From positions 483,206-547,205 of the forward strand of contig NZ_HE997626.1 of the NCBI RefSeq assembly GCF_000312385.1: a DNA stretch of 64,000 nt. The letters run 5' to 3'. The position numbers were made by a program, and so were the translations under genes. Shown here piece after piece: positions 14,561 to 46,893 of the stretch. This DNA is from Tsukamurella sp. 1534. Its GTDB lineage: Bacteria; Actinomycetota; Actinomycetes; Mycobacteriales; Mycobacteriaceae. The notes under the pieces are model-generated. The model was not told where the DNA came from, did not search any database, and was given only the letters and a program-made list of their open reading frames with translations. Numbering within the stretch: position 1 is the stretch's first letter; each line of letters begins with the position of its first letter.

Positions 14561-15652
14561 GTGACGCGCGTCGTAGTGGTCGGTGCCGGCCAAGCCGGTC
14601 TCTCCGCGGCATACTTCCTGCCCCGCTTCGGGATCGATGATTTCGTGGTCCTCGACCACAACCGGGGTCCGGGCGGCGCCTGGCGGCAACGCTGGCCCTC
14701 GCTGACCCTCCGGGCCGCGAACCACGTGCACGACCTGCCCGGGTGGGGCCTGCGCGAGGCGCTCGGCTGGGAGTGCGACGACATCCCCGCCGCAACCGGC
14801 GTCGCCGACTACTTCGGGGAGTACGAGAAGAAGTTCGCGCTGCCCGTGCAGCGCCCCGCCCACGTCGGGTCGGTCTCCCGCACGGGCGATCCCGGCCGGC
14901 CGTACCTCGTGGCGGGCCGCGCCGAGGACGGCCCGTTCGAGTACCGGCCCGGCGCGATCATCAACTGCACCGGCACCTGGGACAGCCCCTTCTGGCCGAC
15001 GGTGCGCGGCGCACCGTCGTTCCGGGGGACGCAACTGCACGCGCACGACTACCGCACCGCCGAACCCTTCGCGGGGAAGACGGTGGCGGTGGTCGGCGCC
15101 GGGATCACGGCGGTGCAACTGCTACTGGAGATCTCGCGCGTCGCGGACACACTGTGGTTCACCCGCGGCGAGGTGCGGTGGGACGAGACGCCGTTCGACC
15201 CCGACAAGGGCCGGCGCGCGGTGGCCCGCGTCGACGAGCGGGTGCGGGCGGGTCTGCCGCCCGGGTCCGTGGTGTCCGTGACGGGGCTGCCCGTCAACGA
15301 CGCCATCCGCCGCGGCATCGCGGACGGGGTCCTGGTGCGGCGCCCCATGTTCGCCGCGCTCACGCCCGACGGTCCGCTGCTGGCCGACGGGACGGGGGTG
15401 CACGCGGACGTGATCCTGTGGTGCACCGGATTCCGCTACTCGATGGACCACCTGGCGCCGCTGAACCTGCGCGCCCCGGGCGGCGGGATCGTGATGACCG
15501 GGCGGCTCGCGACGGAGGTCGCCGGGGAGCCGCGGCTGCACCTGCTGGGCTACGGGCCTTCGGCGTCCACGATCGGCGCGAACCGCGCGGGCCGCGAGGC
15601 GGCCCGCGCGGTGGCGGAACTGGTTGGCGGCGGCAGTCCGCCACGTGGGTGA
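14561..15652 (+). CDS. FAD/NAD(P)-dependent monooxygenase-like flavoprotein
   Basis: 363 aa. An N-terminal FAD-binding motif GAGQAGLSAAYFL and a second dinucleotide motif GAGITAVQLLLEI (about 180) give the two-domain layout of flavin-containing or Baeyer-Villiger-like monooxygenases and YpdA-type reductases. GGAWRQRWPSL is typical of the former. WCTGFRYSMDHLAPL and LGYGPSASTIGANRAGREAAR close the FAD site. The 3' end carries the first copy of a 42-bp direct repeat, and the last residues (GGGSPPRG) appear to have been replaced by an insertion. Confidence 0.82.
   Translation: MTRVVVVGAGQAGLSAAYFLPRFGIDDFVVLDHNRGPGGAWRQRWPSLTLRAANHVHDLPGWGLREALGWECDDIPAATGVADYFGEYEKKFALPVQRPAHVGSVSRTGDPGRPYLVAGRAEDGPFEYRPGAIINCTGTWDSPFWPTVRGAPSFRGTQLHAHDYRTAEPFAGKTVAVVGAGITAVQLLLEISRVADTLWFTRGEVRWDETPFDPDKGRRAVARVDERVRAGLPPGSVVSVTGLPVNDAIRRGIADGVLVRRPMFAALTPDGPLLADGTGVHADVILWCTGFRYSMDHLAPLNLRAPGGGIVMTGRLATEVAGEPRLHLLGYGPSASTIGANRAGREAARAVAELVGGGSPPRG
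15583..15624 (+). repeat. 42-bp direct repeat, copy 1 (inside the flavoprotein 3' end)
   Basis: Identical over 42 bases to 17316-17357. It begins with a near-perfect dyad, CCGCGCGGGCCGC and its complement separated by GAG, and ends GTGGCGGAACTGGT. The two copies bracket the TetR/hydrolase insert. Confidence 0.9.
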
Positions 15653-15784
15653 GCCCCGACCGCTTGAGAACATGAGGTCTGCCGTGTTCAAGCCGCTCTC
15701 CGAATCTGTCCGATACGGACGCTCGACGGTCCCGCTCCGGCCGTCCGCGAGCCGCAGCCCAGCACAGCCGGCCCTGCCGGCGGT

Positions 15785-16402
15785 CTATGAAGACGCTTCC
15801 AGGATCGCCGCGATAGAGAAGTCGGCGATCCGCATGAGATCTCGCCGACCGACTCCGTCATTGGATTGAACGGAGAGTCCATGCCAGAGGGCCTGGATCG
15901 ACGCCGCGAGAACCACAGCGGACACATGGGCCGCAATCTGCCCTTCGGTGCGGGCCCGCTCGATCCGTCTCCGCAGCAACGCCTCATTCGACCTATGAAG
16001 CTCGCGGAGGTAAACACGCGTGTCGATCACATCCGGGACATCCGACATCGCGGCGCTGCTCACGAGGCAACCGGGATGACGCTCGAGCGGTTGAGTGAAC
16101 TCTTCGATCGACTGGTGGAGCACGTCGCGAAGAACCACTGCGATGTCTCGCTCGACGCACGCCGACTCGTATATCGCGCGATATCGCTCGGCGAACGTGC
16201 GAACGGCAACCTCGAACAATCCCGCCTTGCTGCCGAATGCCGCATAGATGCTCGACACCGACAACCCCAGGGCGGCGCTCAGCTCACGCGTCGACGTGCC
16301 GGAGTAGCCGCGCCGCCAGAACAGTCGCGCTGCCTCGATAACGGCGTCGTCCCGATCGAACTCCGGTGGGCGACCGACCGATCCACTATTCACACCTTGC
16401 AT
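15785..16402 (-). CDS. TetR-family regulator of the inserted module
   Basis: 205 aa. The HTH is TSTRELSAALGLSVSSIYAAF (about 34-54), followed by GSKAGLFEVAV; the C-terminal half contains HPGCLVSSAA, typical of the AcrR/YxaF-like branch. Codon choice is visibly less GC-biased than in the neighbours (many ATA, TCA and GTA triplets). Divergent from the hydrolase with 28 bp between starts, so it most likely represses both. Lies inside the 42-bp repeats. Confidence 0.82.
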   Translation of the reverse strand: MQGVNSGSVGRPPEFDRDDAVIEAARLFWRRGYSGTSTRELSAALGLSVSSIYAAFGSKAGLFEVAVRTFAERYRAIYESACVERDIAVVLRDVLHQSIEEFTQPLERHPGCLVSSAAMSDVPDVIDTRVYLRELHRSNEALLRRRIERARTEGQIAAHVSAVVLAASIQALWHGLSVQSNDGVGRRDLMRIADFSIAAILEASS

Positions 16403-16428
16403 TATAGATCAAACGCTCCATAATAGAT
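16400..16428. promoter_or_regulatory. Operator/promoter between TetR gene and hydrolase
   Basis: Direct repeats CATTATAGAT (16400-16409) and CATAATAGAT (16419-16428) have a 19-bp period; their cores ATTAT and ATAAT are also complementary. CATAAT (16419-16424) lies six bases before ATG 16431 and looks like a leaderless -10. The repeats overlap both start regions, as expected for an autoregulated TetR operator. Confidence 0.5.
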
Positions 16429-16430
16429 TT

Positions 16431-17240
16431 ATGAAACGATCGATTCAGAAGTTCGTACGAGTTGATGACACCGACGGGGTATCGGTCGATATCTACGGCG
16501 ATCCGGACGCACCCTCCATCGTCGTCGTTCCGGGAGTCATGAGCGACGCACAGAGTTGGCGGAACGTCGCGGAATCGCTGACGGCGTGGCCGTCCGTCGC
16601 TGTCGTCAATCGTCGCGGACGATATCCATCCACCCCGCTCAGTGACGATTACGGCCTGCACACGGAGATGGCGGATCTGCACCGTGTGCTCGACGCAATC
16701 GGCGATCCCGCCACACTGTTCGGCTGGAGTTACGGCGGGCTGATCGCGTTGCTCGTCGCACGCGAGCGGTCGATGGAGCACCTTGTCGCCTACGAGCCCG
16801 TCGCACCTGGATTCGGTAGCCACGCCCTTCCAGCGCTCCGCCGCGCCGCGGCCGATGCGGATTGGGGGCGCGTCGTCGAAATCATCAATCGCGACGTTTC
16901 GGGGTTCTCTCACGGATACGTCGAAGGACTACGCGCCGACCATGCAACATGGACCGAATTGATGCGTCTCAGCAAGCCACTCCATGCCGAACTCGAAGCA
17001 CTGTCCCGGATCACCATCGACGGTCTCATCGGCGCCCAGGCGAACACGATCGACTTGATCATCGGCGCGAACAACGTCGGCGTTCCTCCGTACGGCAGCA
17101 CATTCGAGAAGATCGCGGCGCACCTCCGCGGGAGTTCCGTGCACCACCTGGCCGATCAAGGCCACCTCGCCCACATCGAAGCACCCACCGCGCTGGCCCG
17201 TCTCATCGATGAGCTCGCCCCACCCCGCGTGTGTCCATAG
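16431..17240 (+). CDS. Alpha/beta-fold hydrolase of the inserted module
   Basis: 269 aa. The nucleophile elbow GWSYGG (about 99-104), an oxyanion-strand segment VVVPGVMSDAQSW and a C-terminal catalytic histidine in ADQGHLAHIEAP are all present; the acid is probably in the region before LIIGANN. No signal peptide. The GC content of the coding DNA is visibly lower than average here. It is the likely target of the adjacent TetR and may hydrolyse an ester or lactone that induces it. Substrate unknown. Confidence 0.8.
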   Translation: MKRSIQKFVRVDDTDGVSVDIYGDPDAPSIVVVPGVMSDAQSWRNVAESLTAWPSVAVVNRRGRYPSTPLSDDYGLHTEMADLHRVLDAIGDPATLFGWSYGGLIALLVARERSMEHLVAYEPVAPGFGSHALPALRRAAADADWGRVVEIINRDVSGFSHGYVEGLRADHATWTELMRLSKPLHAELEALSRITIDGLIGAQANTIDLIIGANNVGVPPYGSTFEKIAAHLRGSSVHHLADQGHLAHIEAPTALARLIDELAPPRVCP

Positions 17241-17315
17241 CGATCAGAATCGGAGTAGCCCGGCAAACGAGGAACTTCACTGCGGCCGATCAACCGACGG
17301 ATCCACGTGACGGCG

Positions 17316-17357
17316 CCGCGCGGGCCGCGAGGCGGCCCGCGCGGTGGCGGAACTGGT
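17316..17357 (+). repeat. 42-bp direct repeat, copy 2
   Basis: Exact second copy of 15583-15624. It sits outside any plus-strand gene now and ends at the stop of the convergent aldo/keto reductase gene. Confidence 0.9.
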
Positions 17358-17370
17358 CAGCGGAGGTTGA
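17317..17370 (+). pseudogene. Vestigial 3' end of the flavoprotein gene
   Basis: In the frame used by copy 1 of the repeat, copy 2 encodes the same residues (RAGREAARAVAELV) and then continues SGG followed by TGA at 17368-17370, a natural-looking ending. This is best read as the original gene end, separated from its gene by the 1.7-kb insert. Inference from repeat identity and frame. Confidence 0.6.
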
Positions 17371-45456: not shown

Positions 45457-46893
45457 TCAGGAGCGGCGCGGCATCCTGTCCGCCGCGGACAGAATCCGAG
45501 GGGACTTTTTCCGCGGCCCTGGCAGGAGCGCCGCAGCCGCGACACCGACCGCCGCCACCGCCGCCATCAGCCAGAAGGCGGGGTGCAGGGCGTCCGCCGG
45601 CGACCGGTGGCCGAGGCCGGCCTGCACGACGAGCGCCGCAGCAGCGACACCGATCGCCCCACCGAGTTGTTGGGAGCCGCGGGTGAACATCGACGCGTGG
45701 GGCAGCTGTTCGCGCGCCAGGTCGACGTAGGCCGCGGACAGGATCGGCACCAGGACCGCGCCCATCCCGAGCCCGCGCACGAAGAGCACGATCGCGAGCG
45801 GGATCGCCCCGGTCTCCGGGGTGGCGAAGGCGAAGGGCACCGTCGCCGCGGCCATGAGGGCGAACGCGCACGCGGCGACCGCGCGCGGGCCGAACTGGTC
45901 GACGAGCCTCCCGACGAAGAACCGCGGCACGAAGGCCCCGACCGCCTGGGGCGTGAGCAGCAGGGCGGCGGCGAGCGCGTCCTCGCCGCGGGCCGTCTGC
46001 CAGTACAGCGGCAGGACGAACATCGCGCCCATCAACGCGCCTCCGGCGACCAGGCTCGCCAGTGTGGCCGCGGCGACCGCGCGGCCGCGGAGCAGCCCCA
46101 CCCGGACCAGGGCATCGTCGCCCGCCCGCGCCGCGTGCAGGCCGAACGCCGTGATCAGGGCGGCGCCGATCAGGAGCGCGCACACGACGATGCCGACCGA
46201 CACCGTGCCACGGCCCAGTTCGGTGAGACCGTAGAACACCGTCACGATCCCCGGCGCCAGCAGGATCAGCCCCTTCGCGTCGAGCCGCGGGCGTGTCACG
46301 GCGGACCTCGGGGCGTCGTCGGGCAGCACCCGGACGGCGGCGACGAACGCCGCGGTACAGACCGGGATGTTGACGGCGAACATGGCACGCCAGTCGCTCC
46401 AATGCAGCAGAGCGCCGCCGAGCACCGGGCCGACGAGAGGGCCGAGCGCGATCGGCACGCTCAACGCCGCCGTCACCCGCGCGACCGAGGCGGATCCGGC
46501 GGCGCGCACCGCGATGGTCTGCATGTTCGTCATCAGGACGCCCGCTGCGGCGCCCTGGACGGCGCGGAACACGATGAGACTCAGCGGGTTCCAGCTCACG
46601 GCGCACAGCGCCGATCCGATCGCGAAGAGCACCAGCGCGCCGAGCCACAGGCGCCGGCCGCCCAGCACGGCGTCGAGCCATCCGCACAGCGGGATCGACA
46701 CGACCAGCGCGAGGAGGTACGCCGTGCTGACCCATTGGACGGCGCCTACGTCGGTGCGAAGGTCGAGCACCAGGGTGTGGACGGCGATGGCCAGCATTGT
46801 GGTGTCGAGGATCGGGGCGAACGCGCCCAGGACGAGGGTAGCGATGAGTGGCCGCAGCGACGTCCGCTCCGACTCCTCATTAGATACAGTCAT
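45457..46893 (-). CDS. DHA2-type MFS drug exporter (EmrB/QacA-like)
   Basis: 478 aa from ATG 46893, about fourteen helices. FAPILDTTMLAIAVHTL, GWLDAVLGGRRLWLGALVLFAIGSALCAV and SVPIALGPLVGPVLGGALL (motif C, antiporter signature) are typical. The start codon sits inside a perfect palindromic operator and after CATATT (leaderless -10). Divergent from a TetR gene, the standard regulated efflux pair. Confidence 0.88.
   Translation of the reverse strand: MTVSNEESERTSLRPLIATLVLGAFAPILDTTMLAIAVHTLVLDLRTDVGAVQWVSTAYLLALVVSIPLCGWLDAVLGGRRLWLGALVLFAIGSALCAVSWNPLSLIVFRAVQGAAAGVLMTNMQTIAVRAAGSASVARVTAALSVPIALGPLVGPVLGGALLHWSDWRAMFAVNIPVCTAAFVAAVRVLPDDAPRSAVTRPRLDAKGLILLAPGIVTVFYGLTELGRGTVSVGIVVCALLIGAALITAFGLHAARAGDDALVRVGLLRGRAVAAATLASLVAGGALMGAMFVLPLYWQTARGEDALAAALLLTPQAVGAFVPRFFVGRLVDQFGPRAVAACAFALMAAATVPFAFATPETGAIPLAIVLFVRGLGMGAVLVPILSAAYVDLAREQLPHASMFTRGSQQLGGAIGVAAAALVVQAGLGHRSPADALHPAFWLMAAVAAVGVAAAALLPGPRKKSPRILSAADRMPRRS

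Follow-up and report, generated by a model that had tools for sequence, protein, structure and literature searches.

CIMEs are islands bracketed by attL and attR that carry no integrase, and palindromic-unit (REP) or MITE-like repeats are dispersed, palindromic and intergenic. Small variable segments form a further class, 10–18% of which are flanked by deletion-permitting repeats according to the excerpted text of one study, in which palindromic units are also mentioned (PMC2884548). In E. coli conjugation, an extract from a second report describes 56 of 60 clones giving a PCR product diagnostic of a partial duplication of the homologous end, with 14 sequenced duplications of 109–950 bp explained by a shortened circular molecule undergoing one crossover (PMC3240628). 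Template switching at quasi-palindromes has been described in E. coli (PMC7202029), and template switching more generally as a source of hairpins (PMC8794818), again as given in parts of these reports.

Here we compare with these systems a locus in a 64-kb stretch of a Tsukamurella genome (the whole stretch analysed, referred to as the window), using a set of 16 Tsukamurella genomes made up of the window's own and 15 relatives. The locus lies between a flavoprotein gene (Pyr_redox_3 / FMO-like by Pfam; 14561..15652, + strand) and a convergent aldo/keto reductase (AKR) gene (PF00248; 17357..18181, − strand). With a probability of roughly 0.55, we interpret it as an acquired regulator-enzyme pair residing in a variable native intergenic repeat, together with a local 42-bp duplication of the flavoprotein gene end.

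The TetR and hydrolase genes

Two genes occupy the interval, a TetR-family regulator gene (PF00440; 15785..16402, − strand) and an alpha/beta hydrolase gene (PF12697; 16431..17240, + strand), both probably acquired. The original prediction had described them as less GC-rich DNA lying between two copies of a 42-bp repeat; the composition holds, with a third-position GC of 0.73 for each gene against 0.93 for the flavoprotein and 0.96 for the AKR gene, but the left edge of this DNA is not at the repeat, as a native-type arm (15695–15721) intervenes. DNA of the pair was not found in any of the 15 other Tsukamurella genomes (21 first-look candidates scored per genome), the residual matches being three of 31–52 bp in two of them, so sites without the pair exist. 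A single distant TetR relative, at 40% identity, is present in the same genome. Absence from close relatives and deviating composition are both features of acquired small variable segments, and the pair probably came from another, unsampled bacterium.

Strong homologues of the hydrolase (E up to 1e-55) are present in three of the 37 genomes searched in one related genus and, among 395 other genomes from the rest of the phylum, in one. These four proteins share 51–54% identity with the Tsukamurella hydrolase and have 265–266 aa (269 aa here), and in all four cases a TetR gene lies adjacent and divergent, at 52–56% identity; a TetR gene was beside none of four examined among the seven weaker homologues (43–48%). 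The divergent TetR/hydrolase unit is therefore sporadic in distribution, and flanking direct repeats were seen around none of the four related pairs examined. No homologue of the hydrolase was found in phage records, and no close relative of either cargo gene on plasmids, the hydrolase matching 16 plasmid records at less than 60% protein identity and TetR giving short matches in two. No NCBIfam model scores over its cut-off for the hydrolase, and the best weak match is 3-oxoadipate enol-lactonase. The short intergenic region between the two genes (16386–16445) is AT-rich and includes TTGCAT and CCATAAT blocks, which by eye seem conserved with the loci of three distant homologous pairs; it is possibly the TetR operator.

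A genus-wide repeat with inverted arms

The native-type arm beside the flavoprotein gene belongs to a dispersed repeat. The arm is a 27-nt motif (RCTCTCSGATTSTGTCCGNNNCGGACA) with nine sites in the window's own genome (≤3 mismatches; control 0) and 124 sites in 12 of the 16 genomes (≤2 mismatches; control 0), the other four having none. Arms often form inverted pairs, either in a 57-bp minimal form (19 pairs counted) or around C-rich interiors, and most of the 14 arm-pair interiors compared share sequence; inverted terminal arms around related interiors at several loci are the arrangement of TIR-bounded MITEs or transposons. None of five arm loci scanned has an Rfam match, and the arm repeat goes unmentioned in the titles and abstract beginnings of open-licence papers that name Tsukamurella alongside palindromic, repeat and intergenic sequences.

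Arm copies are also found elsewhere. A third copy in the window (45477–45503) lies between other genes, and at C1:385638 and C1:385768 in the same genome (L152 1939–2095; C1:385638–385794) there are two identical arms, 130 bp apart and with the same preceding 14 bp, apparently a local tandem duplication. As further cargo, genes lying between arm copies at other places were considered and dropped, the longer gaps mostly involving neighbouring 57-bp pairs, and three of four reading frames taken from such gaps have no Pfam family.

In the window, a search allowing ≤3 mismatches with a 24-nt core, which omits three end positions at which the right arm (first noticed by eye) mismatches, gave three matches in 64 kb against 0.00 expected from 100 shuffles. 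These are at 15698–15721 (−), 17232–17255 (+) and 45477–45500, with the first two forming an inverted pair around the TetR and hydrolase genes. Over the full arm, the left copy (15695..15721, + strand) agrees at 22 of 24 specified positions, the top match on its strand, while the right one (17232..17258, − strand, inverted relative to the left arm and degenerate) agrees at 18 of 24 and is second best on its strand. Since full-arm scores of at least 18 arose in 2 of 12 window shuffles (one strand each), 17232–17258 is a probable rather than a certain right arm, and its weight comes from its predicted place and orientation.

The arms bear on where the foreign DNA begins and ends. The segment 15684–15720 aligns with intergenic DNA of the relatives, with none of 300 shuffles as good in three of 14 relatives, 1–3 as good in four, and 75–263 in seven; neither 15625–15680 nor 15741–15784 is alignable with any of the 14. 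The stretch from the left arm to the TetR stop (15722..15784) has no match to relatives and a GC content of 81% across 15726–15784, and the left edge of the foreign DNA would fall within it. The right flank gave a weak signal in a first shuffle test (best 18/300). The hydrolase stop codon TAG (17238–17240) is inside the right arm, and the BLAST alignments with the four strong homologues end at residue 260–263 of 269. With edges between the arms, on the left within this stretch and on the right at the hydrolase stop, the foreign part would be about 1.45–1.5 kb, and because an arm lies inside the repeat on both sides of the cargo, the 42-bp repeat is set back from where the foreign genes begin and end. 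The GC contents of 15625–15725 (0.65) and 17241–17315 (0.61), which are below those of the surroundings, count against such narrow edges.

One alternative is that the arm pair is itself a mobile frame, or one open to exchange, in which recombination at the arms can put genes in place of the interior, with the 42-bp copy as a by-product. We regard this as quite improbable; if it were true, regulator-enzyme pairs would pass between members of the genus with no recombinase of their own.

The flavoprotein–AKR junction in relatives

Orthologues of the flavoprotein gene are present in all 15 relatives at 75–84% DNA identity, and nine named loci encode the flavoprotein at 76–85% identity, eight from Tsukamurella and one on a contig labelled Acidobacteriaceae bacterium. 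The AKR gene comes next after the flavoprotein gene in 11 of the 15 relatives, 14 to 702 bp past the end of the flavoprotein match; among the remaining four, it is distant on the same contig in two (G009 and G012), and the contig ends there in G003. In the fourth (G008, taken to be strain 8F; L073 6041–8588) the two genes are approximately 2.5 kb apart, and with this gap and the two species in which the genes are far apart, the junction differs repeatedly within the genus.

Arms were searched for at all 15 congeneric loci and on the separate AKR contig of G003. An arm pair is present at the flavoprotein–AKR locus in eight of the 11 relatives with adjacent genes (≤5 mismatches) and absent from three, and in G003 a pair is found on the AKR contig as well. 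The interiors at this locus in the eight relatives are 75–373 bp long, and the TetR and hydrolase genes are absent from the relatives' arm-pair loci. An empty site had been predicted in which the flavoprotein ends in AELVSGG-stop and abuts the AKR gene, and it was seen in none of the 11 congeneric relatives with adjacent genes. In one divergent species (L015) 11 bp separate the two stop codons.

The 42-bp direct repeat

The exact 42-bp direct repeat described in the original prediction is real, with copies at 15583..15624 and 17316..17357 (both + strand) at a spacing of 1733; exact direct repeats of 20 bp or longer are otherwise limited in the window to a single one, a 20-bp overlapping run of low complexity. 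The flavoprotein 3' end is likewise present twice, as proposed, copy 1 being in frame within the gene, which currently ends in ELVGGGSPPRG-stop, and copy 2 continuing in frame in its sequence to SGG-stop. Copy 2 is an extra flavoprotein gene end set against the AKR stop, and its last base is the first base (+ strand) of the AKR stop codon. The reported dyad was also borne out, with perfect 13-bp arms around GAG (15583–15611 in copy 1), and on its left side the repeat begins exactly where this 29-nt dyad has its foot.

In copy 1 the dyad is coding sequence (RAGREAARA), and the orthologous coding sequence is found in relatives; 13 of 13 positions pair here, against 5–9 of 13 across the same coding stretch in all 15 relatives. 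When synonymous codons are drawn by local usage, the probability of 13/13 pairing is 0.0024. Copy 1 is most likely the native gene end, and the native-type flank (15684–15720) adjoins the present gene end and not the distal one. A search for the sequence elsewhere with other cargo had been suggested; with ≤3 mismatches allowed, the 29-bp dyad core turns up at no third site in the genome, and viral contigs show no exact match to a 41-bp pattern taken from the repeat.

Homology of copy 2 to flavoprotein 3' ends does not extend leftwards past the 42 bp. On the right side, where the homology model ends with the repeat and flank shuffles alone apply, 130–378 of 1000 shuffles were as good. Upstream of both copies the flanks align borderline, with 13 of 1000 shuffles as good at 75 bp and 38 at 60 bp, but 228 at 40 bp and 440 at 30 bp; judged by this alignment, the two copies could be parts of a longer old duplication.

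The island had been likened to the outcome of integration at a gene 3' end, with the 42-bp repeat restoring the coding end, and that account survives in part. The pair is foreign-looking and missing from all 15 congeners, and the window has no PF00589 (tyrosine integrase) match, in agreement with the statement that no integrase is nearby; integration and gene-end reconstitution at the repeat are not supported, with arms inside the repeats, no empty site in the 11 relatives and a dyad that is not conserved. Integration of an att type was set aside as unlikely because, within the repeats, the arms flank the cargo, and because the empty site was not seen. In a CIME-like variant, an integrase acting in trans would have inserted the DNA site-specifically at the 3' end of the gene. 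This variant could draw on the exact repeat at a gene end, the in-frame distal end, the dyad, the foreign cargo, and six PF00589 matches over the cut-off in the genome, all outside the window (PF00239, serine recombinase, has no match in the genome). We nonetheless consider it highly improbable, as the left arm and the probable right arm keep the repeat from being flush with the acquired DNA as attL and attR would be, no empty attB was found in those relatives, the dyad is not conserved, and the repeat core was not found elsewhere in the genome.

Two recombinational alternatives deal with the repeat differently. A conspecific fragment containing the flavoprotein 3' end, the arms and the cargo may have been re-circularised and recombined by a single crossover with a recipient in which the two genes abutted, leaving the 42 bp on both sides. 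This accounts jointly for the repeat, the arms and the cargo, similar duplications are reported from E. coli conjugation in the part of that study cited above (PMC3240628), and L015 with its closely spaced stop codons is a relative approaching such a recipient. It also requires that the recipient had lost the whole intergenic region, whereas an overlap of the genes is seen in none of the 11 relatives, that the donor already had the cargo, and that the crossover fell within 42 bp, and on balance it is rather unlikely. In homology-facilitated illegitimate recombination, a homologous joint would lie in the flavoprotein gene and an illegitimate joint at the start of the 42 bp, making copy 2 the old end of the recipient gene. 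A like anatomy has been put forward for the 3' ends of effector genes displaced in arrays of Vibrio cholerae, going by an extract of that report (PMC5361080), but such events are usually accompanied by a deletion of similar size, as stated in the excerpted E. coli study (PMC3240628), and an abutting recipient gene pair is again needed, which is unseen in the 11 relatives with adjacent genes; we consider this origin very unlikely.

Origin of copy 2 and of the locus

The region next to the AKR gene shows how copy 2 is placed. From the right arm to the AKR stop there are 59–65 bp in seven of the eight arm-bearing relatives and 102 bp in one, and here there are a 57-bp spacer (17259..17315), alignable to none of the eight, and 41 bp of copy 2. 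This looks as though copy 2 had been added. A strong hairpin of the CCCCGGG type is present just past the AKR stop in seven of 11 relatives (by eye), a position taken here by the copy-2 hairpin, and the AKR 3' flank with copy 2 folds at −38.4 kcal/mol in 70 nt, compared with −23.4 to −45.3 in the 11 relatives, these energies being for GC-rich DNA and without a shuffle control. We infer that the copy-2 hairpin now acts as the AKR terminator.

In the preferred reading, an acquired pair in a native repeat with a local gene-end duplication, the TetR and hydrolase genes would have replaced the interior of the genus-native repeat that lies between the flavoprotein gene and the AKR gene convergent with it, with the inverted arms of the repeat remaining on either side. 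Forty-two base pairs of the flavoprotein gene end, starting from the hairpin foot, would have been copied beside the AKR stop, most likely through a template switch, or the repair of a gap, involving two gene ends that both bear hairpins. The copying step, and its order relative to the cargo, we infer from the arrangement of the locus. We judge the 42-bp repeat to be, more probably, a stray copy of the adjacent gene end than a trace left by an integrating element.

The locus illustrates that an exact repeat at a gene end can imitate an integration footprint, and that comparison with relatives shifts the likely edges of foreign DNA. It also brought to light an intergenic repeat, spread across Tsukamurella, that encloses variable DNA between its halves, and the hairpin of one gene end may have been re-used at the end of its neighbour. 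Homologous deletion between the 42-bp copies would drop the cargo and leave a flavoprotein ending in SGG-stop.

Comparison with known systems

The arm repeat resembles REP and MITE-like repeats in being dispersed, with palindromic arms in inverted pairs and mostly between genes, and differs from them in that its sequence is Tsukamurella-specific within the scope searched and without an Rfam match at the five loci scanned. With CIMEs the locus shares a direct repeat at a gene 3' end and a window lacking an integrase, but the repeat here is not flush with the cargo, and none of the 11 relatives has an empty attB. Like the small variable segments as excerpted from their description (PMC2884548), it is short, intergenic and has no mobility gene of its own, but its direct repeat is off the foreign edge and one copy is a gene end. 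The orphan 3' ends of Vibrio cholerae type VI effectors, in the available part of their description (PMC5361080), similarly place a 3' end downstream of inserted genes; at the Tsukamurella locus, by contrast, the flavoprotein gene is intact, no gene is displaced, and only 42 bp are duplicated.
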